Shown here: in pieces, positions 6,306 through 40,328 of the stretch
Layout: the number at the start of each line of letters is the position of its first letter
Position numbering within the stretch: the stretch's first letter is position 1
Origin: Amaurobius ferox
Taxonomy: Eukaryota > Arthropoda > Arachnida > Araneae > Amaurobiidae
Length of the DNA stretch: 64,000 bases
Reading direction: 5' to 3'
Assembly: GCA_951213105.1 (NCBI GenBank)
Contig: OX578152.1
Coordinates: 72,052,680-72,116,679 of the forward strand
Made by a program: the position numbers and the translations under genes
The notes under the pieces: model-generated
Told to the model about the DNA's origin: nothing
Databases searched by the model: none
What the model saw: only the letters and a program-made list of their open reading frames with translations

Positions 6306-6480
6306 ACATGCTTTCTTTCATTTTCCAGGTATGATTTTTTGATCTCTTGCACATTTCCATGTTGCAATTATATTTTCTAAATTTAATAAGGATACATCAA
6401 TTTCTTTGTTGTGTTGCGATTTCAGTTGTGAGCAGTGTTGAAGGAATAAGGGATAACCAAATGCTTTGCATTTAATGGTT

Positions 6481-6500
6481 GGGGAGGATTGCGACTCCCC
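6481..6500 (-). other. Conserved octaloop hairpin in Naiad 3' region (copy a)
   Basis: On the sense (minus) strand the stem GGGGAG/CTCCCC encloses the loop TCGCAATC. The same loop with different paired stems occurs at six other Naiad ends in this window. A conserved AAAGC-A-GCTTT dyad and a GTGAGCGTT hairpin precede it. Confidence 0.8.
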
Positions 6501-6668
6501 CTCCCGTTTAAAGCTGCTTTTCCAGCCTAGGCAAACGCTCACTGTACCAATACAAAGCAAAGGCTGGCCCCCATTGCGTGCTATTACGAAGGCATCCGGA
6601 TACGGAAGAGCAAGACCAACCAAACAGAAGGACACTGGACCAAAAGTGAAACCTGCCCAACTCGCTAT

Positions 6669-6696
6669 CTTATATATGTTTATCTTACGCATGCGT
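6669..6696 (-). promoter_or_regulatory. Possible pseudo-LTR promoter (ACGCATGCGT plus TATA)
   Basis: Sense strand shows ACGCATGCGT (6687-6696), resembling an NRF-1/alpha-Pal site, and TATATAAG about 10 bp downstream (6669-6678), just after the RT stop codon. The same order recurs at 18084-18114 and 36806-36844 in diverged copies. Promoter activity is an inference. Confidence 0.45.
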
Positions 6697-6722
6697 GCAA
6701 TCCTAGCAGGTACGCATAAACT

Positions 6723-8650
6723 TTATTTACTTGTAGATTGATGAAGTAAACTGTCAAAATCTACATGATCCTTGAAAATCGATCTATAACAATCCTTTAA
6801 GAAATATAAAGGATAATGTTTATATAAAGCCTCAGTTATGATTTTAATGTTGCTATTATTGCAATCTCTTTTAAACGGGTTGTAAATTTGGTTTCTCTTG
6901 AAGTGTCCGAGTATGATATTTCTGAAATTATTTTTGGTAAGATTTGTTTTCCAATCGATGAGATGATTGATCTTAATTCTATATAATTCTCTTTTGTCAT
7001 ATAACGTTGTATAATGACTACATAATCCATGTTTTTTTATTGAGATGTCCAGAAAATTTACTGCTTCATTTTCTTCTTTACAGTTTTCTATTAATTCTAA
7101 TTCCGGTGGGTAGAAAGAGAAATCGAAATTGGTGGTGTCTTCATAACATCCCAATAGCACATCGTCAACAAACCGGAAATATGGTATCTCTGACAAAATA
7201 TGGGTTCCTTTTTCATATGCTGAGAGGTATATATCAGCCAAGATTGATGAGCAGGCTCCTCCCATTGGAATTCCCTTTATTTGTCGGTAATAATTTTTTC
7301 TGTTATGTAGAATATTTTCCTTTAATACTAGTTTAATAAGGTCAAGGTATCTTCGATATGTAATAAAATCTTTCAAGTTAAATTCTTCATGTAATTTTTC
7401 CAAGATTGAGTATAAATTTGATAAATCAATGTTGTTAAAAAGGTCGCGGAAATCAAAGCTTTTAAAACATATATTTTAATTACAATGTTTTAAACGATCG
7501 ATAACTTCTATTCCATTCTTGATTACGACATGATTTTGTTTTTTGATGTTTTCCATCACAAACTTGAGGATGTTCAATAGTCGTTTATTAGCTATTGTCA
7601 GATATGATCCACAGCCAACGGTAACAGTGCGGAATTTTACAGGCACTTTATGCATCTTTGGAATGAGGATTAAATATGGAAATTTAACAGATTTTATTTC
7701 ATTACCGATTCGTTTGTACATAGCTTTATTCTTTTTAGATACAAAATTTCCTTTATTGTGTACTGGGGTGTATATAGTACTGTCTTGGTAGCAGTGGAGA
7801 AGTGTATCCATGTAACACTTTTTGCATGTAAATGCAAAATGTGATACCATCTTGTCAGTATAAGTTATAACAAAATTTTCTTTTAGTGTTTGTATAGCTG
7901 CAAGTACTGAATGATTCCTTATTTTGTTACCATGTTTGATGTAATAAAACTGAAATTCTTTTGAAAAATTATATTTCCATTCTTGAAAGGCTTGGATTGG
8001 TAAACTGTGTTTTACTGTTATTTTATAGATGAATTCTTTAAGATCTTGATTGAAATTTTCGACTACTTGGTTATATTCTTGTGATCTGTATTTAGTTCCG
8101 AGTTTGAAAATATTTTTTAGAGTTTCATCTGAGATAATATCCAGATCACCTGTAATGATGTGATTATGATAAGGATCTTTATGTATGCTATCAAAGCTTT
8201 TGCATTCTGTAGTTTTAGTATCCAATTCTTTACAGATATTGTTGTAGTTGAAGAATCTCCTACCGTTTGTGCGTACAAAGCGGTAAGTCATTTTTACCTT
8301 AAGTAGGAATAAACCTTAATTTTTACCTTAAGTAGGAATAGGTAAGAAAGTTTTAATATATTGTAGAGTATCGAATTAAAGAGAATTGCATCAAATTTTT
8401 TATTTCTGCATGTGGTTATAAAATATTCCATACTTTGCTTGTTCTGTATTTTGGGTTTTAATGCAATTTGAAATTTTCTGGCCCTTAATTTAATTAAGTC
8501 AAGCATAATGGCTATATTTTTATGTGTTTCTTCTATTTGAAAGTTAATAGGTTCTTCCAATGTATATTGCTGTATGAAAGCCCATATTCGAGGTAAATAT
8601 TTGATTTTTATACCGTAAATGATATCCTTAATCCAGCTGTACTTGATTCT
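6723..8650 (-). pseudogene. Reverse transcriptase of a Naiad-like Penelope element, frameshifted
   Basis: Three pieces make up the RT. Piece one (8294-8650) is the linker region before the RT, with EETHKNIAIMLDLIKLRARK. Piece two (7476-8291) has the ECKS pair, where homologues carry the CxC motif and here the second Cys reads Ser. It also carries HNHIITGDLDII, LGTKYR, the Cys pair FTCKKCYMDTL and the PKMHKVPVKFRTV block. Piece three (6723-7403) is the palm: YRQIKGIPMGGACSSILADI, then the catalytic FVDDVL, then FLDISIKKHG. Between pieces one and two a ~30-bp direct duplication (about 8297-8342) disturbs the frame. Around 7404-7480 the frame shifts again. The protein would copy element RNA at a nicked target. 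It cannot be made intact from this copy. The GIY-YIG domain is absent. Confidence 0.82.
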
Positions 8651-8660
8651 GTCTTTGGAT

Positions 8661-9035
8661 TTGGACTCCTATTATAGACTTTCTATAGAAACTTCTAGAA
8701 ATCTCTCAAATCTCGTTGAATATTCGTCTCGTTGAATATTCGAGGTGTTTCTCAAACCTTCGAAAAGTTGCAAAATATCACCAATTCTGGCAACATCTCC
8801 TCTGAATTTAAGTATATTGCAACCCTAGATTCAAGTCATAGGAAAGGTTGCTGGAAGGGTGTTTTCTCCGCCTGGTTCTCAAAAGACACTGCACTGAAGA
8901 GGTCACGTTCGTAACAATATTCACATTTTACATTTTCGTAACAATATTCAGCGATGTTAATCAACTAAATAAGATTAAGGATGCAACGTTTAGACTGAAG
9001 GTATTTTATTAAAACTTCTTATAAGACGTACAAAG
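8661..9035. other. Intergenic, no gene seen
   Basis: Between the two Penelope-type elements. It holds a small local duplication (ctcgttgaatattcg at about 8712-8740) and otherwise unrecognised AT-rich sequence. Confidence 0.6.
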
Positions 9036-9045
9036 TGTTGCAAAT

Positions 9046-9087
9046 GCCAGAGCGCTTTCGAGTGTTAATATGTTCTCCATCAGTGGC
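9046..9087 (-). ncRNA. Hammerhead ribozyme-like motif in Penelope terminus
   Basis: On the minus strand: stem I GCCA, then CTGATGG (consensus CTGATGA, last base changed), stem II GAG...CTC, GAAA, a minimal AGCGCT stem III, cleavage base C, and closing TGGC. This matches the minimal type I hammerheads described in Penelope-like elements. The A-to-G change at the end of the core probably weakens it. Confidence 0.55.
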
Positions 9088-9175
9088 TACATGGAAAGTA
9101 CCACTTCATCAGTGGCTACATGGAAAGTACCACTTCATCAGTGGCTACATGGAAAGTGGCTACATGGATCTTTCA
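9076..9175. repeat. Short tandem repeat (29 bp, about 3 copies)
   Basis: The block catcagtggctacatggaaa recurs three times at 29-bp spacing. It begins inside the hammerhead motif, so the core CTGATG and stem I half are multiplied on the minus strand. Confidence 0.8.
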
Positions 9176-9368
9176 TATATAGACGAGTGACATAGCAAAT
9201 TTGCCTAAATAATTAAAAAATTATTAAGTGAACAGATTATTATCCAAGAAATATACACAGAAAATATAAATATATTTTAAACGGATTCAAAATGTAAGTA
9301 TATCACCAGAAAAGTACAATTGTAAAATATTATTTTATTACAGGAAAAATGCAAATTTGAAAGGACAG

Positions 9369-11160
9369 TCAAGCCCGATCTTTTTGAGAATGGCGTCCAA
9401 GATAACTATGAAGAGACTTGAATTGCATAGAGTGGAGAATGAGTCGCAAAGCATAACTTAAAATTTGAACGGGATCAAAATTACAAATCGACGCACGGTA
9501 GATAAAAATAAAAAGGGATTCATAAAGGAGAATATTACGTGGGCTAGTACAACGCATCGAAAGGAAAGTTTTGTCAAAAACGGGCAGGAAATTATCACTA
9601 ACTACATATTGAGCACAACCCGTAGAAAGTTTTCCACCTTTGACATCACGAGCGCGCTCTGCTAAACGGATGCCAACATTGCGTTGGTACTGCCAATATA
9701 AAATTTATAGTCTCCATCGGCAGACAACAGGGGAACCACATACACCCCAGCATAGCTTTTAAAGTTATTAATATCCCCACGTTTATCAGAACGAATACGG
9801 TTAAATTAAGTGGTAATATTAGAATGAGCAGGCTTGACACCAAATTCAGGATAGAATTGAATAAAGGGACGGAAGATCTTGGGATGGTAAGGAAAACTAG
9901 ATTTATAAGCTAAACGATCTTTTAAAGCAACAAGTTTAGTATCAATTTGAATAAATTTATGGCGAACATGGGCGAAAATGTTATGTATTAACTCAAAAGA
10001 ATAAGCAGTCTCATGGCCAAGATTAAAAATAGAATTAATTTCGTCAGTCAAAGCAGGGATAGAAGAACAAGCATTAAATGCGCGATTAAAATAAGCGTTA
10101 AAAGAGGCTTTTTTAGAGGGAATAGGATGATAAAAATTATACAGTAGGGGATACAGTAGTTAGTAAAATATGGTTTACGGAAAGCAGATGTGTGAAAACC
10201 AATAGCGTAACGTGTAATCAGAACATCAAGGAAAGGCAAAGAATAATTGGATTCATGCTCAACAATAAAAGTAATCGAAGGGTAAAAATCATTAACCTTA
10301 GCCAACAGATAAAAGAAATCATTTAAATCACTATCCCAAATAATAAAAACACCATCCACGTAACGGCACCAAAGAATGGGTTGGATCTTTAATAAAGGCA
10401 AAACCTCATTTTCGAGCTCCTGCAAATCCGCCTCAGCCAGAATACTAGAAAATGGGCTACCCATAGGGGCGCCAGAAGTTTGCAAATAAATAGCATCGCG
10501 GAAGCCAAAGTAATTTGTCCTCCGCAACAATATTCAAAGCAGAAATGATTGCGACGATAGTAGGGTTTTTTAAAATTGTTATTTTGAAGTTTTTTGGCAA
10601 TAAATTTAATAGCAATGTCAATGGCAATACTAGGAAATAAAGAAACTACATCAAAACTATGAAGTGTACATTTAGGATTGAATTTAGTTTTAAATAGTAT
10701 ATTAATGAAATTTTCAGTAGAACTAATAGAACAATTGTGATTATTAAAAAATGGTTTTAAGAAATAGGCGAGGGATTTCTCTAAAAAATAAATAGGTCCA
10801 CTACATTTGGAAACAATTGGACGCATAGGAAAATTTAATTTATGAAGTTTAATTTGGCCAACGATTTAGGAAGTTGATGTGAAGAACGGAAAACGGCAGA
10901 TTTTACATTGGAGGAAGATCATTACATTTTTCAAGTTTTGCAATCCTAGTATTAATCACCGTAATCGGGAATTTTTGGACCTGTTTGCATTCCATCTCGC
11001 CAATACACTTCTGCATTGAATTAACATAATCAGTTTTATTTGTAAGAACACGTTGCTGAGTTTTGTCAGCAGATAAAATAACAAGGTCGGGATTAGATTT
11101 AAGTTTCCTAATTTCCGCGAGTTCAGTATTCAAAACAATATCAGAATCAGAAAGTCTATT
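9369..11160 (-). pseudogene. Penelope RT plus GIY-YIG endonuclease, degenerate
   Basis: The N-terminal part reads NPDLVILSADK (11133-10903). The RT starts MRPIVSKCSGPIYFLEKSLA (10826) and includes LHSFDVVSLFPSI, with the first catalytic Asp. The central motif is SGAPMGSPFSSILAEADLQE. The usual YVDD box reads RYVDGVFIIW, so the second Asp of the pair is lost. LPFLDVLITR and RKPYFTNY follow. The endonuclease is recognisable in shifted frames as GVYVVPL then KFYIGSTNAML near 9740-9670. The tail PRNILLYESLFIFIYRASIC at 9557-9480 is typical of Penelope proteins. The full protein would prime cDNA at sites nicked by the GIY-YIG domain. Multiple frameshifts and the DD-to-DG change make it dead. Confidence 0.87.
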
Positions 11161-11250
11161 TTTACTTTTAAGTTTATTCTTATTTTAAAAAGCAGTAAAT
11201 GACCGATAAATAACAAATCGGCCACCATCTCTATGACCTTGATCTACATT

Positions 11251-13120
11251 AAGAAAGGCACCTTCTATAAGGGGAATTAAATTAATAAAACTGGAATTAA
11301 CTAAACTAGAATTAATAAAACTAGAATTAATAAAACTAGAATTTGATCAAACGTACCAAATTTTGGATCTCTACAACAACAACATAATCGCCGGTAAAAG
11401 TGAAAAATTCTGGCATGTTCTGGCCAACTTCGTTTGGGAATTATGTAAAATTTCCGGAAAAATAATAAATTTAGGAAAATTTATCAATAGTTTTGTCATA
11501 AATGATGTGTCCACACTATTTGTCACGATATGAAGCCTCTTTCATAAATTTACTGTTAGCCTATATCAAAGTTCTTTAAAGTGTGTTCTTTGAAACCCTT
11601 GGAATTTCGCGGTAATATCCTAGGGGTTCCGAAACGTGATTGTTTTGGGTGAATTTTCTAAAACACAATCAAGAAACGCGTTACATATGAATTCATAATT
11701 TGGACTACAATGGACTCATTTTGTTGTTCCCCCATCACATTGAAATTCAAAATATTTCCGCGACCGAAAACATTGGTCTGTGTATTAAATATAAAGTTAT
11801 TTATATAATTTGTTAGTGTCAATAAGGAAGATTACTTCCTTTAGTCAACTTTTGTACATTTTTTTTTTTTGCAAAATTAAATTCGTATGGTCTCCTTTAC
11901 CACATTACTAAGTTTGAACACTCTACAGTTTAGTTCTCTCTACGGCGGTTTTCATTTACAGGTTGTGAACTGTATTGACTCATCTTTACTTTTGGATTGG
12001 ATATTGCAAAACCATATGGATATGTCTTCTATTCGAATCAATTAGTTTAAAATATCTTGTTGTAATTATTTAAATAAATATAAATTTAGCAGGGCGCGAA
12101 TAAAGCTGTCTTGTATTATCAACATTTTGAGCCTGTAGGGAAAGTTACGTATTGCGCATCTCAGAAATTTCTTTCTCAAACAATTTCACCCACTTGAACT
12201 TCAATTAAGTAACTCTCTTGAGCTGCGAATTCTACTTGACAAACAATCATAAAAACAATTTATTTAGAACAATGAAAACAAGCTTTAACAAAGTCAATAA
12301 AAAGTCAGGAGTATGTTATAAAAAACCTTCTCTTTTGTTCCCTTCTGCTGATAAATAATGCACCGCTGAAGCAATGAAGAAAATAGCGTTTTTATTCTAT
12401 AGAAAGTCCCTGCATGACGTCACTGCGACGTATGATGACGTTATTGATCTGCTTTTAATTATTTCCTGAGGATGCGGATCGTAAATGCACCCTTTGACAG
12501 CGGATCTGTGTGCTTGGCTGGTGATTAGTAGAGATAGGAGGACAACAGGTGTGACGAAAGTTATAAGGGTACACGATTTAATCGAAAGAGATTATATATT
12601 ATGTGTAAATTCGCAGAATAGACCCTAAGCAAGCTATATTGATCTACGCGACGGATTCGATATACCATCTTAGAAGCAATGAGGCTGAATAAATGGAATA
12701 TTATATACATACAGTTAAGTGAGACTGACTGACTGAGAGAGTGATGAAATACACAACCCTAACTGCTGAAAGTAGATGCGTCATGCTTTGTATACACATG
12801 GGAATTGACCAGTAAGTAATCAGTAAAATCTTAAATCTGGGAATTTTGTTCGAAAAATTTACAAATCGCTGAGTTTTTGTTTTGTCCAATGTAAAACGAC
12901 TAAGGGAACTAAGGCTGACTAAGGGGAACATACATAGTTCAAACTACTGTATGTAGAAACTGGAAACGTTGTACATATAGTAGAAATTGGCCTAAAAGTA
13001 ATGAGAAAAAATTCAAAATCTCGGAATTTTGATAGGAACGTTTCTAAGAATCCCATTTTTTCACATGCTATTACTGCATACATACATTATTTTTTTTAGA
13101 TATATGATCGTTACTTTAAA
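11251..13120. other. Intergenic, no gene seen
   Basis: AT-rich. A short tandem run of aactagaattaataaa (about 11279-11342) borders the Penelope element. A poly-T run lies near 11861. The rest is unrecognised, and short open frames here have no family features. Confidence 0.6.
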
Positions 13121-13199
13121 AATAAAGACAACCAAGCAATTGGCCATAATTAAAAGTATTTTATTAAAAGCTCCTATGGCGACGTACAAAAATTATACA

Positions 13200-13241
13200 G
13201 CCATAGCGCTTTCGGGCATTGCTATGCCCTTCATCAGTGGC
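13200..13241 (-). ncRNA. Hammerhead ribozyme, minimal type I, well preserved
   Basis: Minus strand: GCCA (stem I), CTGATGA (intact core), stem II GGGCAT-AGCA-ATGCCC (six perfect pairs, one extra A before it), GAAA, the self-complementary AGCGCT (stem III with a two-base loop, or a dimer), cleavage base A, then TGGC (stem I). All invariant core bases are present. Such short stem III ribozymes in Penelope elements are thought to act as dimers. Confidence 0.65.
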
Positions 13242-13363
13242 GAAGTGAAAACAAGTGGCGAATATGTGCTTAAATACATACAAGCCATAACCGCCAGACA
13301 AAATGTACATATTAATCACAAAATTTACATATTAAGCGCATGTTCTCCACGTATTTCCACTTC

Positions 13364-13405
13364 GCCACTGATCAAGGGTATAGTAATGCCCGAAAGCGCT
13401 GTAGC
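13364..13405 (+). ncRNA. Hammerhead ribozyme, decayed copy
   Basis: Plus-strand partner of the motif at 13200-13241: GCCA-CTGATCA...ATGCCC-GAAA-GCGCT. The core has GATGA changed to GATCA, stem II has a G-to-T change (GGGTAT), and the base after AGCGCT is G, which is not cleavable in known hammerheads. Probably inactive. Confidence 0.6.
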
Positions 13406-13625
13406 CGTGTAATTTTTTGTACATCGTACAAGGAAATTTTAATAAAAGATTGTCAATTATTGTTGTCAATTGTTTGGTTGTCTTTGTTTTTAAAGTATTA
13501 ATTATTTTGACGTGTTTCCATACTATTTTATATGATCGTTGGTTTATCATGTTATGTAGTAATCCATACGTGAAAATGTACGGCACGAGGAAAGTTCCCC
13601 GAATCCATTAATTTTTAATTAATAG

Positions 13626-13925
13626 GATTAATCTAATTTCCATCTGGTTCATGGAAATTATATTAATTCAATTAATCTAATTTCCATCTGGTTCATGGAA
13701 ATTATATTAATTCAATTAATCTAATTTCCATCTGGTTCATGGAAATTATATTAATTCAATTAATCTAATTTCCATCTGGTTCATGGAAATTATATTAATT
13801 CAATTAATCTAATTTCCATCTGGTTCATGGAAATTATATTAATTCAATTAATCTAATTTCCATCTGGTTCATGGAAATTATATTAATTCAATTAATCTAA
13901 TTTCCATGAACCAGAAAATTTCTAT
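13626..13925. repeat. 44-bp tandem array of hairpin units
   Basis: About six near-identical 44-bp units; ctggttc recurs at 13644, 13688, 13732, 13776, 13820 and 13864. Each unit contains aatttccat-ctggttc-atggaaatt, a 9-bp inverted repeat with a 7-base loop. The last unit ends with the complementary atgaaccag, as if the array folded back. Confidence 0.9.
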
Positions 13926-15226
13926 TATGAACTATTATGAACTATATTATGAACTCGGACGAGGCGAACATGGAATGGCGAGCATGGCGAACTTTTCATT
14001 CATGTTCACATGGAATGTATGGAACTCCTGCGTCCTGACCACTAAATCTTGAGGATTCTTGGGTTTGGGAGGAAATCTTTAAAGAGCTAAACTTGATTAT
14101 CACGAATTTACTGGATTATTTTCATTAATAGCAAATTTCAATTAAAAGAATATTTTTTAAAATAATAGTCATTTGCTTTCTACTAATAAATAATGTATCA
14201 ACACAAAACAAAGTGGCTCTATACTTGCAGCTGATCTAAACTGAATACATTGTGGCTAGCGATGAGTTTCAATCGAATGAAACTATCGAATACCTCGATA
14301 GTTTCAGATCATTCGATAGTCTCGATAGTAATAAAGAACTATTAGAATATAACTTTACCAATAGAAGCGTTTTCCCCAAGCTCGATATTTCAAAACTATT
14401 CGAATACTTTTCAGTCGATAGTAGTATAAAGCGAGTAAATTAACTATTCCAATGATTTTGGACGATTGCCAAATCTATCGTCACCGAATGTAAATTATTG
14501 CGCTTAGCGATAGTTTGCATTCGAATGATTTTGAATTGATAGTGAAGTAAAATATTCATTTGCTTATTCGGTTGATTTTGACAATGTAAGACAGTATTCA
14601 TAAGATGATTTTGGAAGATCGGTTGACTATATAAGATATATTTGTTATTCATCCGTTTACTTTTGAGCATAAATCAATCTTGGTGAAATAAAATAATTGA
14701 TATGGTTTTATTTTTTTGAAAAAAAAATAATTTTGACATGTGAAATAGGCGCCTTTTAGGATGAAATAGTGTATTATTTTTAAAACTTGCATGTAATTGA
14801 TTGAAGCAAATACATTTTATTATAATGACTCAAAAGTAATAACGTTTTGCTTAAACATCAATCTCTAATTTTAATGCAGATTATAGCTAATAAAGTTTAT
14901 AAAATACTTTTGTCGTAGATATTTATGTGAAGAAATTTAATGATGCACTGTTAATTAAGGTACATGATAAGGGAAAATGTCGAATTTTCATGTAACATGT
15001 ATTTTATATGCATTCAGAGCAAAATTATTTTAACAACATGTTCTATAGTATTCATTTATTTAATCATTTCAATATAGAGTCATATTTTTAAGGCATTGCG
15101 GAATTACCGACATATGTGGATAAACGCTATAATGTTCGCCTAGCACTAGCGCCTACTAGTTCGTCCTTATTCTTAGGTTCCACACTCTCAACAGCCAATT
15201 TTTAATGCGGTCGGTTATATGTATAT
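13926..15226. other. Intergenic with CGATAG-rich patch, no gene seen
   Basis: AT-rich. At 14270-14510 the hexamer cgatag or its complement and close variants occur repeatedly, giving short open frames of no evident family. Nothing else recognised. Confidence 0.55.
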
Positions 15227-15278
15227 AAATATTTATATATATATATATATGATATATATATATATATATGTTTATATA

Positions 15279-15320: not shown

Positions 15321-15321
<1 letters not shown>

Positions 15322-15473
15322 AGTGAAAAACAATCCAAGAGCAATGATAATAGTAAATATAGAAACATATAGTAATTAGGCGCATATGCAGCTCTAAAAA
15401 TTATTGCCATATAAAATTTAAAAAAAAAAAAAAAAGAGAGAGAGAGGTGTGCTTACGGGGAAGTAGCAAGGTC

Positions 15474-15493
15474 AAGGGGGATTGTGACCCCTT
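15474..15493 (-). other. Conserved octaloop hairpin (copy b)
   Basis: Sense stem AAGGGG/CCCCTT around the loop TCACAATC. The stem differs from other copies but still pairs. It is preceded by an AAAGCATGCTT dyad. Confidence 0.8.
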
Positions 15494-15797
15494 TTCCTGG
15501 TTGAAGCATGCTTTCAGTCCCGGGAAACACTCCCAGAAACCACTAAATGCCCGAAGCAATCACCATCGTGAATGTGGGAAAAGCAGAATCCCTTGAGGAA
15601 CACTAAGACCAGAAAGCGATATAGAAGTTGTAAATATGAAAATACATTGCGAAAATTGCAAAAATTACATGTCAATACTGTATCACAATATCCGTCACAA
15701 TGCACGTCAAAGTCCAAACAGTATCTAAAATAAACAAGTAAGAATAAACTCCATTATAGCGAGTACCGCAGTCGCAGTTACAGTGTTTATCACACAT

Positions 15798-16439
15798 TTA
15801 AAGAATACGTGATAACCATTCATGGAAATAAGTATACTCTTCTGTTCTAAATTTTTTGTAATATGACATGTAATAATGTCGCAAAAAGTTTTTAGGAAAC
15901 GATTGAATCAATGCTTCCTTAATTAATTGACCTTCACAATTGAGCCGATCCTGTTGATTAGAATTTAATTTTCCAAACCGATTAAGATGATTGATGATCA
16001 AATTTCGTTTCACACTCATACTTAAATTTGTGTGCCAGCTTGTTATGTAATTGATTTTACAGTTGAAATTTCTACGTTTATCAAAAATTTTAAAACACAA
16101 TTTGCCATTTTGATCATGATATAAGCATAGATCCAAAAACTCCACTTCCTTGTTATTATTTGGAACATTCTCTATTAGTTCTAGATTTGCTGGATAAAAT
16201 GTGAAATCAAATCGGTCGGAAGGACTAAAATTTGCAATCAAAATGTCATCCACGTAACGGAAGAAGGGAATCTCGTTGAGTATGTGTGTTCCACTTTCGT
16301 AATTGTTTAAATAAAAGTCAGCCAACAAGGAAGAACAACCTCCACCCATTGGAACACCTTTGATCTGTTTGTAGAAATTAGTTCCATTAAATAACACATT
16401 TTCGAACAATACCAACTCAATTAGTTTTTTATACTTCAA
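15798..16439 (-). pseudogene. Naiad-like RT, palm and C-terminal part only
   Basis: An uninterrupted 213-codon stretch. YKKLIELVLFENVLFNGTNF begins the readable part, then YKQIKGVPMGGGCSSLLADF, the catalytic FRYVDDILIA with both Asp residues intact, NLELIENV, VEFLDLCL, and a C-terminal thumb-like region. The fingers, CxC linker and GIY-YIG domains are gone. The ATG is an internal Met, not a real start. It differs clearly from copies 1 and 3, so it represents its own family. The open frame suggests a fairly young insertion, but a truncated RT is not expected to be functional. Confidence 0.82.
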
Positions 16440-16450
16440 TTGGTCAATAC

Positions 16451-16570
16451 TAAAGTGTTACTCCTGGTCGCCAGCTTTGCAACCAGGAGTGCAATGCTGC
16501 GGCATTTGTGACGAGCTCGTTGAAAACTGGGGAGTGGGGTCACAACCCCTCACCGCCATCAAGTAAGCTT
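16451..16570 (+). mobile_element. Short inverted Naiad 3' end
   Basis: A plus-strand terminal fragment, opposite to the RT beside it, with the hairpin GTGGGG-TCACAACC-CCTCAC at 16534-16553 (one G-T pair). This is a small version of the head-to-head arrangement seen at 36553-40328. Confidence 0.55.
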
Positions 16571-17563: not shown

Positions 17564-17863
17564 CATTGGTATTTATAGTAACTTATTGACAATTCTGAAA
17601 CAAGCATGTGTTTGGATTATTTAGAGTTAGACAGTTAGATGCACAGATTTGAAAATCAGTCTAGTCTAATTTATCTTCAAAATTAAGCCAGTTCTGTATA
17701 CTTCCCCTTTTTCGACATTGTGGTCGTGGTTTAACTGCTTTGTTGATTTAAATACTCCGTTATTACTTGACTTACTTGATTTTGTCACTATATCTTTCTA
17801 TAATATATAATTCATATGAAAAAAAGGGGGGGGGAAATGACCAAATGCAAGCCATATAATGGT

Positions 17864-17885
17864 AGAGGGGGATGGCGACCCCTCT
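17864..17885 (-). other. Conserved octaloop hairpin (copy c)
   Basis: Sense stem AGAGGGG/CCCCTCT around TCGCCATC, seven perfect pairs. Confidence 0.8.
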
Positions 17886-18083
17886 TTCCAGTTTAAAAGA
17901 CTGCTTTTATGCCCAGGCAACACTCACGGTACCAATGCCATGCAGTAGCCATACTTCTGTAAATGTGTCAAGTCAAAAACACTCGAAAAAGTGCAAAGTA
18001 ATCAAATAGGAATCAACCAGGATCGCAAGGGAAAGGAAAAAAATGGAAATGCAGCAAATGCCCCTGTCGGTTAATGCAGAGCG

Positions 18084-31538: not shown

Positions 31539-32415
31539 AAAATCTGATGTGGGCAACACATGACTTTCTTTATATAATTCAATGAATTTACTACTTTTAC
31601 AGTACAAAAAATAGATTTTTCTTATAGTAGATACTTATATTCTTTCCAAGATCTTGAATTTTCGACAATTAGTCGTCATTTTCATTGATTTAGCGTCATT
31701 TTAATCCATTTGGCAAGATTTTCGTTAATTAACAACATTCCAAAAAGTCGCCAAGTTAACGACATTCCGCCAAATTTGTCGCCAAAATCTCGCCAAGCTT
31801 TACTGACGGAGAAATAAGTTATTCTTATAGCAGATAAATGACTATTGGCGTTCAAATACAAAAGTATTACTCGAAGTATCTTTTCTCATGAATGGAACGA
31901 GCTAGATATACGAGAATGATGTCACCCAATTTATTGCATGGTATTACATATGAAAAGTGAACATGTTTCTCAATAGGAAATATATATTTTATTTTATATG
32001 ACGTCTTGATAATTTTTTTGAAAAATGTACAATATCTCCAGAACGGTTCATGTTAGTGTTCTAAAATTTATGTTAATCGTTTTCTAATGAAAAATTACAT
32101 AAGAAACGTCTATTTGCGTAACTTTATTAGCGGTTTTGATTTTTTGACGATTTTTTCAAAATTTCACTCGAAAATTTAGGGGGGTTCTGAACATTCGATT
32201 ACATTTAAAAACAATTGTCTTCCTGTGTTTACGGATTGTGCCTTTTGTATCTAATTTCGTTCGAATCGGTCTATTATTTCGTCAGTTATCGTCTCTACAG
32301 ACTCACTGACACACACACACACACACACACAGACATCACTTCAAAAATATTTGATTCGCGATCAGTGATACTTGAAACGTGCTCGCCCGTCGAAAACTCG
32401 AAGTCGAATTTTAAA
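31539..32415 (-). repeat. Repeat R1, 5'-truncated copy
   Basis: Minus copy from the terminus (aaaatctgatgtgggcaaca) through the cgccaa-rich block and (ca)n at about 32311 to the tcgaaaactcgaagtcgaa block. The opening palindrome is missing. Confidence 0.85.
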
Positions 32416-32588
32416 TAATAATAATAAGGAAAGTAAGAAAAAACGGTTTATTTCAGCGTATTTCCCAAAGCTTTTCTACAAGTGTACGAAATTTCATATT
32501 TTTGTATATAATAGTTTTTACGGTACAAAGCAAAGTATGTCGAGAAACGAGAAATTTACCAAACAGAAGCGGGGCGCCAGCTACTTTT

Positions 32589-33530
32589 TACTTTCCTTAA
32601 ATACGTAATGTATAAGAAAAGTATTGTGACGGGGTCGAAAATTCGAATTCGAGTTTTCGACGGGAGAGCACATTTCAAGCATCCCTGATCACGAATCGAA
32701 CATTTTTGAAGTGATGCCTGTGTGTGGGTGTGAAAGTATGTGTGTGTGTGTGTGTGTCAGTGAGTCTGTGGAGACGATAACTGACGAATGAATGGAGCGA
32801 TTTGAATGACATTTGGTACAAAAATCACAATCCGTGACTACTGGAAGCCTATTGTTTTTAACCGCAATCGAATGTTCAGAACACCTCTAAATTTTCGAGT
32901 GAAATTTTAAAAAAATCATCAAAAAATCAAAACCTTTAATAAAGTTACGCAAATAGACATTTCTTATGTAATTTTTCCTTAGAAAACGATTGACATAAAC
33001 TTTAGAACGTTAGATTAAACCGTTCTCGAGATATTGCACACTTTTCAATTAAATTTATAAAAAAATCCTATAAAAATATATTAACTGTTGAAAAACATGT
33101 TCACTTTTCATATGAAATATCATGCAATAAATTGGGTGACATCATTCTCGTGGATCTAGCTCATTCCATTCATGAGAAAAGATACTTTGAGTAATACTTT
33201 TGTATTTGAAAGCCAATAGTCATTTATCTGCTATAAGAATAACTTATTTCTCCTTCCATAACGCTGGGCGATATTTTGGCGACGAATTTAGCGGATTGTC
33301 GCCAACTTGGCGACTTTTTAAATGTTGCCAAATTAACGAAAATATCGTCAATTGGATAAAAATGACGCTAAATCGATGAAAATGACGACTAATTGACGAA
33401 AATTTATTACCTTCCAAAGAATATAAGTATCTACATACTATAAGAATAACCTATTTTTTTTTGCTGGAAAAGTAGTAAATTCATTGCATTATATAAGGAA
33501 AGTCGTGTGCTGCCCACATCAGATTTTTTT
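32589..33530 (+). repeat. Repeat R1, full-length copy
   Basis: Starts at ttactttcctt...taagaaaagtattgtgac (palindrome). It contains a (tg)n run at about 32738, the gcgacgaattt..cggattgtcgcc block, and ends aaggaaagtcgtgtgctgcc-cacatcag plus T run. About 940 bp, no coding sequence. Confidence 0.85.
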
Positions 33531-33692
33531 TTAAGATAGAGATATTTTCCAGCTTTTTAGCTGGAATTTGCATATTTAAAAAAAAAAATCATGTAATAAC
33601 AAAAACTCCGATTTGGGTAACACATGATTTACATAATGCAATAAATTTTCTTCTTTCACATTGAAAAAATGATGAATCTACTGCACAACGTT

Positions 33693-34525
33693 AAAAAATC
33701 TGATGTGAGCAGCACATGACTTTCCCTGCAAACTCATATTCACGTTGTCTTTATTTCTTCAATAATTCAATAAATTCAGTTTAATTGTTCAAAACAGCAT
33801 CCATGAATATTTGAAATTACACTGAATTTGCACTTTTAGTTCAATTTCGTTCTCATTTGGTAACTGGACTTATTTTCTAAGTTGACGTAGCGAAAATGCG
33901 AAAAAAACTAAAATATCTCGAGAACGGCTCAATATAGTGTAACGGGGTTTGTCTTATTCTTCTTATCGTTAAACATTACGTTTTAAAACAAAACAAACAT
34001 TTGATTGATTGATATAGTTGAGCATACGTAGTTTTTTATTTTTTATTTTGACGATTTTTGCGGGCCATTTCGCAAAAACAAATAAATAAATAAATAAAAG
34101 ACAGGTTATTTTTTCCCTATCGTATCAAAATCTAATCAGTACCAGGGTAACCCACAAATGGCATATTTACGAAATTTTGTAAAATTTGATCTATTAGTTT
34201 TTCAGCTGGTGTGGATACAGTCAATTTTTGCTGGTCATGTCGTAAAAAAGGCGGGTTCTTTTACCCTAAATCGTACCAAAAACTAATCAGCACCAGGGTT
34301 ACCCCACAAGTTACTTTTAGGAAATTTGATCCAATAGTTTTTTAGTTAAAGTGGATACATACATTGCACAGACAGACACACATACACAGACGTCACTCTA
34401 AAAATCGTTTTATCGAGTTTTAGAGGTACCAAAACATGTAGATCCTCCGAAAACTCGAGTCGTGATTTTTGGTATGACTCCAATATTTTCCCTATACATT
34501 GCCATGTATTGCAGGGAAAGGAAAA
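33693..34525 (-). repeat. Repeat R2, full-length copy
   Basis: Minus copy from aaaaatctgatgtgagcagc to the terminal palindrome ttttccctatacat...gcagggaaa. Contains two of the internal ~140-bp units. Confidence 0.82.
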
Positions 34526-34743
34526 ATATATGCTTATCATTTAATTCAAATTTTTTTATTATTTCAATTTGCTATCTTTTTTTCTTGATAGCTTTCTTGA
34601 AAAAAAATTTAAAAAATAAAGAGATGACGAACGAACAAAATTATATATTAAATATAGTTTATTAATGCAATATTTTTGGTGTATAAAGAACATGTACTTC
34701 TAAATTTTAAACCTGCTTACTCTATAGCCTGATCATCTTTATA

Positions 34744-34986
34744 CGTCGACGCTGTAGTCGAACGGTCAAGGCGAGAGTTCTCAAAGCAATTGTTTTGACC
34801 ACCGCGCGCCGCGTTGAGGGTTCGAGGTCCACGTAAGACATGGATGTTGTGTTGTAGGCGCAGTGTGTTCTGCCCCCCTCTGGTGCGCCTGGGGCAACGT
34901 CCTACGACGGCTAAATGGTTCAGGCTCCCGGTCGATATATAGGCGAAAGATGAAGAGTCTAGTGCCTGGCCATTTAAAAAAAAAAA
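34744..34986 (+). mobile_element. tRNA-derived SINE (family S3) with perfect target duplication
   Basis: tRNA-like head with A box TAGTCGAACGG (34755-34765) and B box GGTTCGAGGTCC (34819-34830). The spacing suits a Ser/Leu-type tRNA with a long variable arm. Unrelated body, then an A-rich tail (about 34975-34986). The copy is flanked by TGATCATCTTTATA at 34730-34743 and 34987-35000. This intact duplication shows target-primed insertion and a young age. Confidence 0.9.
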
Positions 34987-35056
34987 TGATCATCTTTATA
35001 TACAATGATCTTTATATAAAATGATCTTTATATAAAATGATCATCTTTACATACAA
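34987..35056. repeat. Short tandem repeat after the SINE
   Basis: atgatctttatataaa recurs three to four times immediately after the target duplication and includes it. Confidence 0.75.
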
Positions 35057-35192
35057 GAATCTTATTAATATCGGGGGAAATTTACATATGTAAAGACAAT
35101 TATTTTTAATTGAACTAAAATTTTAAAACTCACATGGACATTAGCAACATTCATCTCATGTTAATATTCATTTATACTTTTACTATTAAAAA

Positions 35193-35777
35193 AATCTGAT
35201 GTGGGCAACACATGACTTTCCTGATATAATGCAATGAGTTCACTACTTTTACAAGAAGAAAATAGGTTTTTCTTATAGTAGATATTTATATTCTTTCCAA
35301 GATAATAAATTTTCGTCAATTAGCCATCATTTTAATTGATTTAGTGTCATTTTTATCCATTTGGCGAGATTTTCGTTAATGTGGCAACTTTTCAAAAAAT
35401 CGTCAAGTTGGCGACATTCCGCCAAATTCGGCGCCAAAATCTCAACAAGCGTTATGGACAGAGATATAAGTTATTCTTATAGCAGATAAATAACGTATGG
35501 CGTTCAAATACAAAAATATTACCCAAAGTATCTTTTCTCATGAATGGAACGAGCTAGATCCACGAGTATGATGTCACCAAATTTATCGCATGATATTACA
35601 TATGAAAAGTGAGCATGTTTCTCAGCAGTTAATATATTTTTTTTAATTTATGGTTTTTTTTGATAAAATTACTATAACAATGTGCAATATCTCGAGAACG
35701 GTTCATGCTACCGTTCTAAAGTTTATGTCAATCATTTTATAAAAAAAAATTACATGAGAAATGGATATTTGCGTAAT

Positions 35778-35786
<9 letters not shown>
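35193..35786 (-). repeat. Repeat R1, partial copy ending in (TA)n
   Basis: Minus copy from aaaatctgatgtgggcaaca to atttgcgtaattttatta, where the TA tract begins. Confidence 0.85.
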
Positions 35787-35823
<37 letters not shown>

Positions 35824-35825
35824 AT

Positions 35826-35884
<59 letters not shown>

Positions 35885-35910
35885 TATATTTATATATATG
35901 TATATATATA

Positions 35911-35953
<43 letters not shown>
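35787..35953. repeat. (TA)n microsatellite
   Basis: About 165 bp of TA with few interruptions. Splits an R1 copy from a Naiad 3' end. Confidence 0.95.
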
Positions 35954-35956
<3 letters not shown>

Positions 35957-35999
35957 CAAAAGCTACGAGACAATTATCAGATAGGTGAGGAAAAAGTAC

Positions 36000-36325
36000 C
36001 AACTGGTAATACATAAAAGGCCTAGGGGGATGGTGACCCCTAGTTCCCGGTTAATGGTCGACTTTTACACCAATGGTAACACATTTGGAGCCATATATTA
36101 CCTGAGGTCCTATTTCAGAACAACGTCAAAACAGAAGACGATCACACAACAAGAACATGCAACCAATAGAGATATAATATAAAAATATAAAATATTCGAA
36201 ATCGAAAAGATGACCTTTTTGAAAAAACTCACCGATTCCTCTTTCGTCACAACTCTTACAACACCTTTTTTTGGTACACTTGTATATTTTCTTTTTATGA
36301 CATACACACACACACACACACATAC
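36000..36325 (-). mobile_element. Solo Naiad-like 3' end between (TA)n tracts
   Basis: Octaloop hairpin at 36022-36043 with the loop TCACCATC, then a diverged middle block. No RT sequence. TA tracts lie on both sides, the usual Naiad target. A (ca)n run at 36303-36322 borders the right tract. Confidence 0.65.
36022..36043 (-). other. Conserved octaloop hairpin (copy d)
   Basis: Sense stem CTAGGGG/CCCCTAG, seven pairs, loop TCACCATC. Confidence 0.8.
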
Positions 36326-36328
36326 ACA

Positions 36329-36330
<2 letters not shown>

Positions 36331-36409
<79 letters not shown>

Positions 36410-36440
36410 TTATATATATATATATATATGTATATATACT
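36331..36440. repeat. (TA)n microsatellite
   Basis: About 110 bp of TA with a few interruptions. Confidence 0.95.
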
Positions 36441-36608
36441 ATTACAATAAAGTGAAACAAAAATAGGACATATCCTATAGAAGCCTGAAATTAAAAGAAC
36501 GATTCACTACAAAGGAGGAGGCGCAAATGCTGCTCAAATTCCTTAGTAGAATACATGAATGTAAGCAGATAAAGGCGGGAGTGACCATATGAATTACATA
36601 AAAATGGC

Positions 36609-36630
36609 AGGGGTGGATTGCGACACCCCT
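36609..36630 (-). other. Conserved octaloop hairpin (copy e)
   Basis: Sense stem AGGGGTG/CACCCCT around TCGCAATC. Upstream hairpin GGTGACG-TGAG-CGTTACC is fully paired in this copy. Confidence 0.85.
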
Positions 36631-36805
36631 TTCCCGCTTAAAGCAGCTTTTTTAACCCAGGTAACGCTCACGTCACCAACATAATTCCATGGTCAGTCTC
36701 CCAAATGTGCGAAAACAAAAGCACCAGAACAGACTCAGAACCAAAGAAGAAACAAACGAATTTTGAAAGAGAAACATCCGTCAGTCTAACCCAATGGAAC
36801 ATCTC

Positions 36806-36844
36806 CTTATAAGAGTAAAGTTGCTCATGCGCAGAGATATATCA
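36806..36844 (-). promoter_or_regulatory. Possible pseudo-LTR promoter
   Basis: Sense CTGCGCATGAGC (36833-36844) and CTTATAAG (36806-36813), the counterpart of the sites at 6669 and 18084. Confidence 0.4.
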
Positions 36845-36896
36845 GGATAACAGTTTCGCAGTCAAGAATATTAAACCTCAATTATCAACATTTAGA

Positions 36897-39180
36897 TTAC
36901 AACTTTTCTTTAAAAAATGAATTGTAATAATGTTGTATAAAAGTGTTTGGATAATTTCTTTTTATAGCTTCCTCTGCAAATTTTTTACATTTGTAAATGC
37001 AGTCTTTCCTAAAAGTATTGTAATTTTGATTTCTTCTAAAGTGACCAATTATTATATTTCTGAAGACATACTTTGTAAGGTTAGAATTCCAGTCGATTAT
37101 ATGATTTACCTTTATCCTGTATGATTCTCTTTTGTTGTGTAACTCTGTATATATTCCATATTTCTGGTGTTTTTTGATTGCGAAATCCAAAAATTTCACC
37201 GATCCGTCCTCACACTCTGGATTTTCAATAAGGTCCAATTCGCTTGGGTAGAATGAAAAGTCAAAGCAAGGGGTGTTTTCATATCCCCCAATTAACACAT
37301 AATCGACGTAACGGAAGTAAGGCATTTCCGATAGGATATGAGTGCCTCTTTCGTATTTAGATAGATAGATATCAGCTAGTATTGACGGGAAACTCCCTCC
37401 CATAGGTATGCCCTTGATTTGCTTGTAAAAATTGCTTCCGTCGTGAAGTATGTTTTTCTTTAATACCAATTCCACCAAGTCCATGTATCTTCTATAGGTT
37501 ATAAATTGTTTTAAATCGTATTCTTCATGTAGATCTTTCAGAATTAATTGTAAATTAGTTAAATTAATATTGTTAAAAAGATCACGAAAGTCGTAACTTT
37601 TAAAGTTGATATCGTTATGGCAAAATTTCAGCCGGCCTATCAGTTCCTGTCCGTTTTTTTATCATGACAGAGTTATGTCTTTTAATATCATGCATAACTA
37701 TTTTGAGTAAATCCAGAAGTTTTTTGTTTGCTTTTTCCAAATATGAACCACATCCCACCGTCACAGTTCGAAACTTGACAGGTATTTTGTGTAATTTGGG
37801 GATGAGGACCAAATATGGATATTTTATTGTTTTAATATCTATTCCTATTCTTTTGTAAAGTGCCTTTATTCTATTTGTCAGTATCTATGCGTTACTGGGT
37901 ATTAAAGCATATATTTCACTGTCCCTGTAACTTTTGTTCAGTGTATCCACATAGAACTCCTTACATGTGAAGGCATAATTTGATACAATTTTATCGGTAT
38001 ATGTTAAAACATATTCCTCTTTAAATTGCTTGATAGAGGATGGAACTTTAATTTCTCTTTTGTTTTTGCTATGCTGCGGGTAGTAGTGACAAAAATCTCT
38101 GTAAAAATTATATTTCCACTCATTAAATGCTTGTACTGGTAAACTATGTTTTACCTCCAATCTATAAATGAAGATGTCAAGATCATTATAAAATTCTTCA
38201 TATACATTTTTAAATTCTTGTATACGGTACTTTGCACCGAGTTGAAAAAGGTTGTTAAGTCTATTGTCTTTAACAAAATTCAAATTTCCGGAAATTATAT
38301 GCTTATGATGAGTGTCACTATGAATATTCTCATGACAATTACAAGAATCTACATTATTTGATGCAACATCTTGACAAATTCTATTATAGTTGAAAAGTTT
38401 CCTTCCGTTAGTTTTGACGAATCTGTAATTGATCATGATTTTTTCATTAGACAAAGGAAGATATACTTTAATATGATTTAAAATAGAATGGAATGGAATG
38501 TTCTCATACATTTTGTTCTTGAAAGTTGTAATAAAAAATTCTTTAGATTGTTTTATATTTTCACTTTTTGTAAGTGTTAAGTTAAAAATTCTGGCTCTGA
38601 GTTTGATTAAATCCAATAGGATATCAATATTAGTACTTGCTTCTTCAATTTTGCAATTGCTTTCTTTTAAGTTGAAATGTATTATATAATTCCATATTTT
38701 CTGTAGATATTTAAGCTTGATACCATTGGCTATGTTTTTAATCCATCCAATTTTCATCGTGTTTTCAGTTTTTAAAAATTTCAATATTTTTTCTTCTGTT
38801 TTAATATAATTATTATGTTGTTTTTACTTCCTCTTTGCCATCTGTGAGATTTTTTATTTATATGGTTTTCTGATAGAGGGTATGATGAACTATCTCTGCA
38901 TCTTTCTTTATTACAGTTTTCGTTGAATATTAATGAATTAAGGCCATATGGGTAAGCAGTATTGAATTGTTTAATATGGTTGCTCTCCCACCACAATCTT
39001 TCCGACTTATTTGGTACTATATCAATTATAGTTACCATGATGTTGGTGAACTCATGGGCTTGGAAATGTCTCAATTCTAAATAAGTAGTGTGAATTTCTT
39101 GTTGTACTTTTCCCACCTGGCTTCGGTGTAGATTTATTCAAATGTTTAAAGGATTCTGCGTCTGTCTTATATATTTAGCT
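36897..39180 (-). pseudogene. Naiad-like GIY-YIG/RT protein, frameshifted
   Basis: Order from the N-terminus. GIY-YIG (39180-38990) has a Cys, then KYIRQTQNPLNI (the usual YIGQT, Gly changed to Arg), a TGA where relatives have Arg, LHRSQV, HFQAHEFTNIMV and FNTAYPYGLN. The linker follows (38784-38350) with IDILLDLIKLRARIFNL and the CNC motif at codons 148-150 of that open stretch. The RT has HKHIISGNLNF, LGAKYR, FTCKEFYVDTL and PKLHKIPVKFRTVTVGCGSY. An extra A in an A run near 37660 shifts the frame there. The palm (37484-36897) has YKQIKGIPMGGSFPSILADI and the catalytic box RYVDYVLIGG, in which the second Asp is Tyr. The inverted partner at 39400 keeps YVDD. Another shift lies near 37870. The protein is not expected to work. 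Confidence 0.85.
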
Positions 39181-39237
39181 TGACATTTTATGCATGATAT
39201 TAAAAGACATAAGTCTCTCATGATAAAAAACGGATAG

Positions 39238-39999
39238 GAACTGATAGGCCGGTTGAAATTTTGCCATAACGATATCAACTTTAAAAGTTACGAATTTCGT
39301 GATCTTTTTAACAATATTGATTTAACTAATTTATAATTAATTCTGAAAGATCTACATGAAGAATACGATTTAAAACAATTTATAACCTATAGAAGATACA
39401 TGGACTTGGTGGAAATGGTATTAAAGGAAAACATACTTCACGACGGAAGCAATTTTTACAAGCAAATCAAGGGCATACCTATGGGAGGGAGTTGCTCGTC
39501 AATACTAGCAGATATCTATCTATCTAAATACGAAAGAGGCACTTATATCCTATCGAAAATGCCTTACTTCCATTACGTCGATGATGTGCTAATTGGGGGA
39601 TATGAAAACACCCCTTGCTTTGACTTTTCATTCTACCCAAGCGAATTGGACCTTATTGAAAATCCAGAGTGTGAGGACGGATCGGTGAAATTCTTGGATT
39701 TAGCAATAAAAAAACACCAGAAATATGGAATATATACAGAGTTACACGACAAAAGAGAATCATTCAGGATCAAGGTAAATCATATAATCGACTGGAATTC
39801 TAACCTTACAAAGTATGTCTTCAGAAATATAATAATTGGTCACGTTAGAAGAAATCAAAATTACAATACTTTTAGGAAAGACTGCATTTACAAATGTAAA
39901 AAATTTGCAGAGGAAGCTATAAAAAGAAATTATCCAAACACTTTTATACAACATTATTACAATTCATTTTTTAAAGAAAAGTTGCAATCTAAATGTTGA
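39238..39999 (+). pseudogene. Naiad-like RT palm domain, truncated copy
   Basis: An open stretch of 199 codons from 39400 (MDLVEMVLKENILHDGSNFY, YKQIKGIPMGGSCSSILADI) contains the intact catalytic box HYVDDVLIGG, then CFDFSFYPSELDLIENP, VKFLDLAIKKH and a C-terminal region ending at 39999. Upstream codons up to 39238 are readable but hold a TAG (CAG in the partner) and a TAA (CAA in the partner). The start ATG is internal, and there is no GIY-YIG or linker. About 95% of residues agree with the minus copy, so both derive from one recent source. Confidence 0.85.
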
Positions 40000-40254
40000 T
40001 AATTGAGGTTTAATATTCTTGACTGCGAAACTGTTATCCTGATATATCTCTGCGCATGAGCAACTTTACTCTTATAAGGAGATGTTCCATTGGGTTAGAC
40101 TGACGGATGTTTCTCTTTCAAAATTCGTTTGTTTCTTCTTTGGTTCTGAGTCTGTTCTGGTGCTTTTGTTTTCGCACATTTGGGAGACTGACCATGGAAT
40201 TATGTTGGTGACGTGAGCGTTACCCGGGTTGAAAAAGCTGCTTTAAGCGGGAAA

Positions 40255-40273
40255 GGGTTGTCGCAATCCACCC
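40255..40273 (+). other. Octaloop hairpin (copy g), weakened
   Basis: Loop TCGCAATC kept; stem GGGTTG/CACCC has a mismatch relative to copy e, its inverted partner. Confidence 0.6.
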
Positions 40274-40328
40274 GTGCCATTTTTATGTAATTTATATGGT
40301 CACTCCCGTATTTATCTGCTTACATTCA

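Follow-up and report, generated by a model that had tools for sequence, protein, structure and literature searches.

A probable divergent type-P5 twister architecture downstream of the reverse transcriptase in Naiad-type elements of the spider Amaurobius ferox

The window analyzed here, a stretch of 64,000 nucleotides (nt) from the spider Amaurobius ferox (GCA_951213105.1, OX578152.1:72,052,680-72,116,679, forward strand; genome size, 3.56 Gb), contains several reverse transcriptase (RT) sequences of Penelope-like retroelements of the Naiad type, including the following on the minus strand: an RT identified by tblastn at 6768..8662 (RVT_1 5.1e-8), a fragment at 15798..16457 (RVT_1 5.5e-6; 26.7 bits, under the Pfam cutoff of 29.6), a C-terminal RT fragment at 18293-18183, and open reading frame (ORF) pieces at 36897..38823, in which tblastn matches follow the order endonuclease (EN), linker, RT and which are accompanied by a GIY-YIG-like region at ~38817-39188. 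At the 3′ ends of such elements, the original prediction had placed seven hairpins with a constant 8-nt loop (octaloop) and a variable stem. All seven are present at the positions and on the strands claimed, with octaloops at 6487-6494 (copy 1, minus strand), 15480-15487 (copy 2, minus), 16540-16547 (copy 3, plus), 17871-17878 (copy 4, minus), 36029-36036 (copy 5, minus), 36623-36616 (copy 6, minus), and 40261-40268 (copy 7, plus). The placement at element 3′ ends is supported overall, with five of the seven hairpins lying downstream of a recognizable RT; of the other two, copy 5 belongs to a short fragment flanked by TA runs, and copy 3 is 5′ truncated and abuts an antisense RT. A conserved repeat that is unrelated to the element and was merely inserted there would fit these two copies, neither of which adjoins an intact RT. 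However, the domain is found at a similar distance past the RT C terminus in several families, and the 3′ tails are family specific, and we consider this explanation so improbable as to be nearly negligible.

The window contains 20 TCRCMMYC octamers, 6 of which are flanked by at least six contiguous base pairs. Copy 7 has two contiguous pairs (5/7 pairs overall) and is indeed, as had been proposed, a weakened-stem duplicate of copy 6; since the two together form a single inverted repeat (97%), the window offers six independent copies rather than seven. A scan for hairpins with an 8-nt loop, at least six contiguous pairs, and at most one G-U pair, excluding simple repeats, yielded 229 hairpins with 222 distinct loops, among which the loop TCRCMAYC occurred six times, versus 0.0 times per window in 30 first-order Markov windows. 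The seven hairpins are, in short, real and far above chance expectation. Their stems covary as claimed: in the six independent copies, a hairpin's own arms pair at 36/36 positions, versus 28.7 on average after exchange of arms among copies; 36 paired positions were attained by 1 of 720 assignments, namely, the true one. Two further structures had been proposed upstream of the hairpin. An AAAGC-N-GCTTT dyad is compatible with a short hairpin (rank 23/720 in the six window copies) that is supported also by the larger alignment described below. A hairpin with a GTGAG loop ranked 443/720 in the same six copies; thus unsupported, it was dropped and replaced by the pairings T1 and P2 introduced below, with GAGYG contributing the L1 side of the T1 pseudoknot.

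A lenient Rfam scan of positions 6420-6680, around copy 1, returned a single hit, at 6483-6543, covering the full model of Twister-P5 (RF02684; 15.4 bits, E value of 0.59). In a second family (L043, positions 1502-1561; L numbers denote fetched genomic loci), the best Rfam hit was again Twister-P5 (19.6 bits, E value of 0.035), with no mismatched pair. Both matches span the whole model in the same register. In this alignment, the octaloop corresponds to L4, GAGYG and YAA to the two L1 strands, and the four-base flanks before GAG and after YAA to P2, and the alignment therefore makes predictions for pairs that had not been counted beforehand. P2 would join the four bases preceding GAG to the four following YAA, P1 would be a short hairpin ahead of YAA, octaloop bases 2 to 4 (CRC) would pair with the GYG of GAGYG (T1), octaloop bases 7 and 8 would pair with the dinucleotide following P2 (T2), and a long, variable stem (P5) would close the domain. 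The likeness to Twister-P5 extends to the order of parts (P2, GAG-N-G, P1, AA, P2′, T2 dinucleotide, P4, and octaloop UCNC-N-A-N-C), to the two pseudoknots, and to the closing stem, whereas the T1 middle pair is Y-R in the spider element and G-C in canonical twisters. We conclude that Naiad-type elements of this genome very probably carry, in their 3′ untranslated region, a divergent type-P5 twister architecture in which the hairpin is P4/L4. The idea of a hairpin that is recognized by itself by the RT or the endonuclease is therefore unsupported as worded, the hairpin being part of a double-pseudoknot RNA, and the loop, for which the original prediction knew of no published description, does have a relative in the twister L4 (consensus UCcCAAGC).

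Across the whole genome, a pattern combining the octaloop with CCCC matched 5,683 + 7,136 = 12,819 times, versus 349 + 306 = 655 times for the reversed control; as some places were matched twice, we estimate the copy number at about ten thousand. The window and the fetched loci together supplied 102 distinct hairpins with loop TCNCNANC and at least 5/6 pairs. Of these, 74 passed a twister-core parse (requiring GAG, AA, the T2 G, and five loop bases, and preferring Y after GAG), yielding 58 distinct cores, 57 of which make up alignment A4 (the truncated copy L063-1437 was excluded). When the complete twister structure, the two pseudoknots included, is imposed on these 57 cores, 90.7% of cells are paired (80.7% when shuffled), the covariation score is 0.344 (0.164 when shuffled), and 132 cells have both sides changed (41.5 when shuffled). 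Relatedness of the copies raises such scores relative to shuffling; however, a control in which the structure is slid by 1 to 3 columns retains this relatedness and yet scores at most 0.096. Paired cells amount to 86.0% in P2, 82.9% in P1, and 97.2% in P4, with both-side changes in each stem, and P2 has double changes at two pairs, occurring as CCGG/CCGG, CUGG/CCAG, CCGU/ACGG, CCAG/CUGG, and CCGU/GCGG, besides mismatched rows. In the pseudoknots, 97.1% (T1) and 99.1% (T2) of cells are paired, with one both-side-changed pair in each: the T1 middle pair is UA in 38 cores, CG in 10, UG in 7, and unpaired in 2, and the second T2 pair is AU in 51, GC in 5, and unpaired in 1. Permutation of partners among all 58 cores gave a concordant picture for P2 (182/232 Watson-Crick pairs versus 155.9 expected, reached by 0/20,000 permutations), for the T1 middle pair (48/58 versus 35.5; 2/20,000), and for T2 (113/116 versus 102.8; 0/20,000). 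In this parse, loops ending in CC face GG in L2 in 6/6 cores; three other GG rows, with a UC loop, are read as having been parsed one base off. The genomic collection and its structural alignment bear out that the stem changes are compensatory.

The covarying contacts T1, T2, and P2 are those that build the active site in twisters, a point that bears on whether the fold might instead be a variant of twister-sister or of the hammerhead. The P4 loop of twister-sister is similar (PMC6154101 and PMC5660989), and hammerheads occur in canonical Penelope-like elements (PMC7761336). Nevertheless, at the thresholds used, Rfam scans of the window, 20 loci, and further copies returned Twister-P5 and neither a hammerhead nor a twister-sister. 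Moreover, both pseudoknots covary in the twister manner, while twister-sister is described (PMC6154101) as incapable of such a pseudoknot. We regard either of these alternatives as quite improbable. tRNA-like and SECIS-like elements, weighed on sequence inspection alone, were set aside.

The closing stem was first seen in the folding of copy 6, where a long-range stem encloses the hairpin region, the 5′ arm (36680..36705, minus strand) pairing with the 3′ arm (36577..36600, minus); this stem is supported by folding, duplex computation, and permutation. In copy 1, the corresponding arms are 6548..6578 and 6442..6473 (both minus). Over the six independent window copies, own-arm duplex energy was −123.3, versus a permutation mean of −79.6 (rank 1/720, the same rank as that of the P4 stem), and in 20 representatives (19 fetched loci and 1 from the window), the true arms beat the permutations, none of 20,000 reaching them. 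Compared with dinucleotide shuffles of the 3′ arm, copies 1, 2, 6, and 7 individually form a better P5 (P values of 0.009 to 0.024). The arrangement that marks the type-P5 permutation is thus present, with the termini within P5 and a closing stem around P4 and P2, and together the P1, P2, P4, T1, T2, and P5 pairings are supported by covariation.

A covariance model built from A4 (R1) retrieved all seven window copies at E values of ≤5.8e-12, with the next match at ≥0.55. The core of copy 1 spans 6477..6546 (minus strand; 56.8 bits, E value of 4.6e-16; model member), with a predicted cut between U6510 and A6509. Copy 2 occupies 15470..15538 (minus; 80.8 bits, 1.5e-23; core identical to model member L054), with a predicted cut at C15503/A15502, and copy 4 occupies 17861..17931 (minus; 76.7 bits, 2.7e-22; model member), with a predicted cut at U17895/A17894, the RT C-terminal fragment lying upstream. 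Copy 3, at 16481..16557 (plus; 43.8 bits, 5.8e-12; model member), has the octaloop TCACAACC with T2 in the GG/CC form; it stands head to head with the antisense RT, the joint being at ~16458, and has A-A at the predicted cut according to the parse. The decayed core of copy 5, at 36019..36090 (minus; 52.8 bits, 8.8e-15; outside the model), has lost GAG, which is intact in its relative L002. Copy 6, at 36606..36675 (minus; 61.2 bits, 2e-17; model member), consists of P2 (36673-36670 with 36637-36634), GAG (36669-36667), the P1 hairpin (36650-36640), and T2 GA (36633-36632), with a predicted cut at U36640/A36639 and a long 3′ tail. Copy 7, at 40209..40278 (plus; 50.0 bits, 6.6e-14; near-duplicate of a member), is the short-tailed arm of the head-to-head insertion of copy 6 and has its predicted cut at U40244/A40245. 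An inverted repeat, CTCCTGGT...ACCAGGAG, was also seen at ~16440-16500, where the head-to-head pieces containing copies 2 and 3 meet.

Several observations weigh against a twister assignment or limit the evidence for it. First, the Rfam gathering cutoff of 37.6 bits was reached nowhere in the sequences scanned, with no twister at gathering score in the window or in 20 loci, and lenient scans (E values up to 5, 1, and 10) found no twister in two copies, four loci, and one copy. The RNA deviates from canonical twisters in loop position 7 (G to U/C), in T2 (GA/UC or GG/CC, not GC/GC), and in an extra mini-hairpin; of the approximately ten conserved L1/L4 nucleotides of twisters, most are kept (several being selection criteria of our parse), with U/C at position 7 and A or C at position 5. 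In our reading, existing models miss the candidate spider twister because its T2 pairs deviate, which would widen the known range of twisters. Second, the R1 matches in the window arise mostly by construction, because four copies are model members, one shares its core with L054, and copy 7 is a near-duplicate; the decayed copy 5 alone lies outside the model set, and its family is represented there by L002. The conservation of GAG, the second A of AA, and loop bases U1, C2, C4, A6, and C8 in 57/57 rows each (and of the first A in 56/57) is likewise partly built in by the parse criteria; the changes in their partners were unselected. Third, 28 of the 102 hairpins failed the parse (by reading, 9 unrelated hairpins, 8 truncated copies, and 11 copies with a shift [4] or with loss of GAG [2], AA [2], or the T2 G [3]), and the cores are not independent, forming merely 9 clusters at 80% identity. 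Neither the number of double-change pairs (14 versus 11.7 when shuffled; reached by 40/500 shuffles) nor that of further pair types (32 versus 34.0; 444/500) was outstanding. Fourth, P5 did not beat shuffles in copies 5, 3, and 4 (P values of 0.083, 0.233, and 0.637, respectively), and L002, L016, L031, L036, and L051 had no individual P5 support among the 20 representatives. Finally, around the predicted cut, the 5′ ends of insertions scatter, with palindromes as a confounding factor, and the strand polarity of mismatches is even (64 G-U versus 59 A-C cells). The last point would be in keeping with a structure acting at the DNA level, i.e., a cruciform or palindrome that steers endonuclease cutting or end joining, as would the short palindromes that are, by eye, the joining points of several head-to-head arms. 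On the other hand, T1 and T2 are covarying pseudoknots within one strand, for which a simple cruciform has no room. Hence, while compensatory changes establish selection on structure, as the original prediction had it, its attribution to RNA rather than DNA is argued from the pseudoknots, and we hold the DNA-level explanation to be improbable.

Downstream of the octaloop, the copies end in one of two ways. The long tail contains, between the two 3′ ends, a small, conserved hairpin box, GCWGC-loop-GCGC (e.g., at ~36540-36520, minus strand), that is common to diverged families. When tails were classed by script as short (no box and a TA run beginning at <95 nt) or long (box present), 107 hairpins gave 50 short, 39 long, and 18 unclassed tails. 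Short tails end 50 to 94 nt after the loop (median, 66), and 36 of the 39 long tails have a TA run, located at 136 to 186 nt except for one at 8 nt. The proposed link between hairpin and start of reverse transcription is thus supported indirectly, through these two discrete ends, from which two start points of reverse transcription would be deduced. Many copies are arranged in head-to-head pairs with their 3′ ends outward. Of 21 pairs with alike arms (≥0.85 over 60 nt), the script assigned a class to both tails in 17, every one of which combined one short and one long tail (the other 4 had one unclassed tail); because L044 and L046 are one duplicated locus, 16 of these pairs are independent. 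Fourteen of 26 further tight pairs were fetched, of which the script called 7 short/long and 1 short/short (L079) and left 6 open; inspection by eye places these six in the short/long class as well, the box being damaged, the run shifted, or a duplication inserted, which brings the total to 13/14. The second arm of L079, the sole exception, ends 18 nt past the loop, at neither site. Besides copies 6 and 7 (window 36551-40333), examples include L013, L021, L033, L037, L056, L060, L061, L065, and L068. Since about half of all tails are short, such a split would be unexpected if the arms chose independently, and we interpret it as the outcome of coupled priming at the two RNA sites, with one event at each. 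This one-short/one-long rule makes the integration mechanism of a third class of retroelements directly testable.

If the RNA is an active twister, it would cut itself after the Y of YAA, immediately ahead of the first A, perhaps only with the help of the element's own protein or as a dimer. Y precedes the predicted bond in 50/58 cores, and except for copy 3, the window copies have U-A or C-A there. Given 15 to 16 nt from cut to loop and the 8 nt of the loop itself, the predicted cut would precede the short end by a median of ~90 nt, and the ribozyme would thereby occupy the place held by the hammerhead in canonical Penelope-like elements, ~90 nt upstream of a start point of reverse transcription. 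The hammerheads of Penelope-like elements, including PAc of Anolis, are likewise small ribozymes upstream of internal RT starts (PMC11167929 and PMC7761336). According to PMC11167929, the hammerhead of PAc cuts 26 bp and the RT starts 111 to 118 bp past the start codon, from which we compute a distance of 85 to 92 nt, close to that in the spider element; two adjacent starts account for the known optional tail, so that both elements share a pair of start sites separated by a tail, and cutting and extension of both strands are reported. The same text reports no difference in RT start site between the strands, unlike the short/long rule found here, and the ribozymes differ in class and location, that of PAc being a hammerhead at the junction of the pseudo-long terminal repeat (pLTR) and the ORF and that of the spider lying downstream of the RT.

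The same source provides grounds for an alternative, namely, that the fold derives from a twister but is no longer catalytic and instead is bound by the Naiad RT, which then starts cDNA synthesis downstream: the anole hammerhead is reported (PMC11167929) to be inactive without protein, and its mutations to be without effect on insertion in vitro. The position of the fold 50 to 94 nt before the short and ~136 to 186 nt before the long 3′ end would suit such a role, as would the departures of L4 and T2 from canonical twisters. The scissile A and the guanines of GAG, which a pure binding fold would not need, are nevertheless kept across families (an observation partly due to selection of the cores), and we rate this alternative as unlikely, albeit deserving of more weight than any other. 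We predict from the sequence that the spider RNA is probably a cut-competent twister; this estimate overlaps with the binding-site alternative, because that alternative keeps the fold.

The 5′ ends of insertions, as noted, do not single out the predicted cut. The material consisted of 27 tight head-to-head junctions and the matches listed out of 256 + 22 TA-flanked ones, many of which represent the same place in several phases. Among the matches listed, a few start, by eye, at or within 1 to 2 bases of the cut AA (e.g., C20:122877573 and C10:27795032); other 5′ ends coincide with the center of either palindrome or with CCGG, or fall within P4. Of 106 sequences compared, 8 had less than 75 nt of upstream homology to another copy, some of these 8 being lone families rather than truncated copies, and one sequence is unrelated. 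An extra palindromic mini-hairpin was observed between GAGYG and P1 (A4 columns 15-25), taking the form CCTAGG, CCCGGG, TCATGA, or others; it covaries and is, by eye, the 5′ end or joining point in L013, L003, L047, and L063.

Craig et al. in 2021 reportedly described Naiads as being without canonical hammerheads, which left open whether the Penelope-like life cycle has a general need for a ribozyme. A second ribozyme class in the same functional place, in approximately ten thousand copies, would imply a requirement for a ribozyme whose fold can be exchanged. We tentatively suggest a joint scenario, itself rather less likely than the twister architecture and the cutting on which it draws, in which a twister replaced the hammerhead in Naiads at an equivalent position, both target strands are primed, and palindromes dimerize the RNAs, thereby coupling ribozyme and priming. 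In a single integration, the complex would prime on both target strands, and each of the two RNA start sites, one short and one long, would serve once; the nearly loopless palindromes (P1 and the extra mini-hairpin) may join two template RNAs as a dimer. Twisters within retroelements are not without precedent: variants are attributed to non-long terminal repeat elements of Schistosoma mansoni, with hammerheads in Penelope-like elements (cited in PMC11620745), and to the 5′ ends of RTE elements, stated as in preparation (PMC7761336); these are other element classes, and the RTE twisters lie at the 5′ end. In the literature searchable here (titles and the beginnings of abstracts), we came across no paper reporting that Penelope-like elements carry a twister. 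Searches for relatives elsewhere gave none in viral contigs (one DNA pattern, 0 matches) and none in bacterial or archaeal contigs, and no protein scored in a protein match scan.

With regard to the host element, the domain lies downstream of the RT C terminus in both window and genome copies, and in L043 and L065, EN, linker, RT, and hairpin follow each other in this order on one strand, with GIY-YIG N terminal to the RT. Because Pfam did not recognize the EN, its identification depends on motifs read from the sequence and on homology among the copies. CxC was seen in two linkers; a CxC linker motif and an insertion-in-fingers domain are said to be Naiad traits in the account of Craig et al. 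mentioned above. No same-strand, pLTR-like upstream copy precedes EN in L043 or L065. In L061, a same-strand copy lies ~1.3 kb upstream of EN. An upstream copy in L017 was considered as a pLTR and rejected, as a TA run separates it from the ORF and marks it as another insertion.

Some further features were observed. A Naiad-type element with an N-terminal GIY-YIG-like region is located at window positions 41694-44227 (minus strand) and in L013 (3730-5409); in the window, its ORF is followed within ~15 nt by poly(A) and TA, apparently without the twister domain, and the related stretch in L013 (93% to one ORF piece) has no same-strand domain copy nearby. An unrelated repeated hairpin with the loop TCTCCAGC, caught by the loose loop pattern, occurs at 41342-41349 (minus) and in L013, L065, and L068. 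Finally, 5S rRNA matches were found near two Naiad loci (L027, 4257-4375, and L028, 837-954; both minus).

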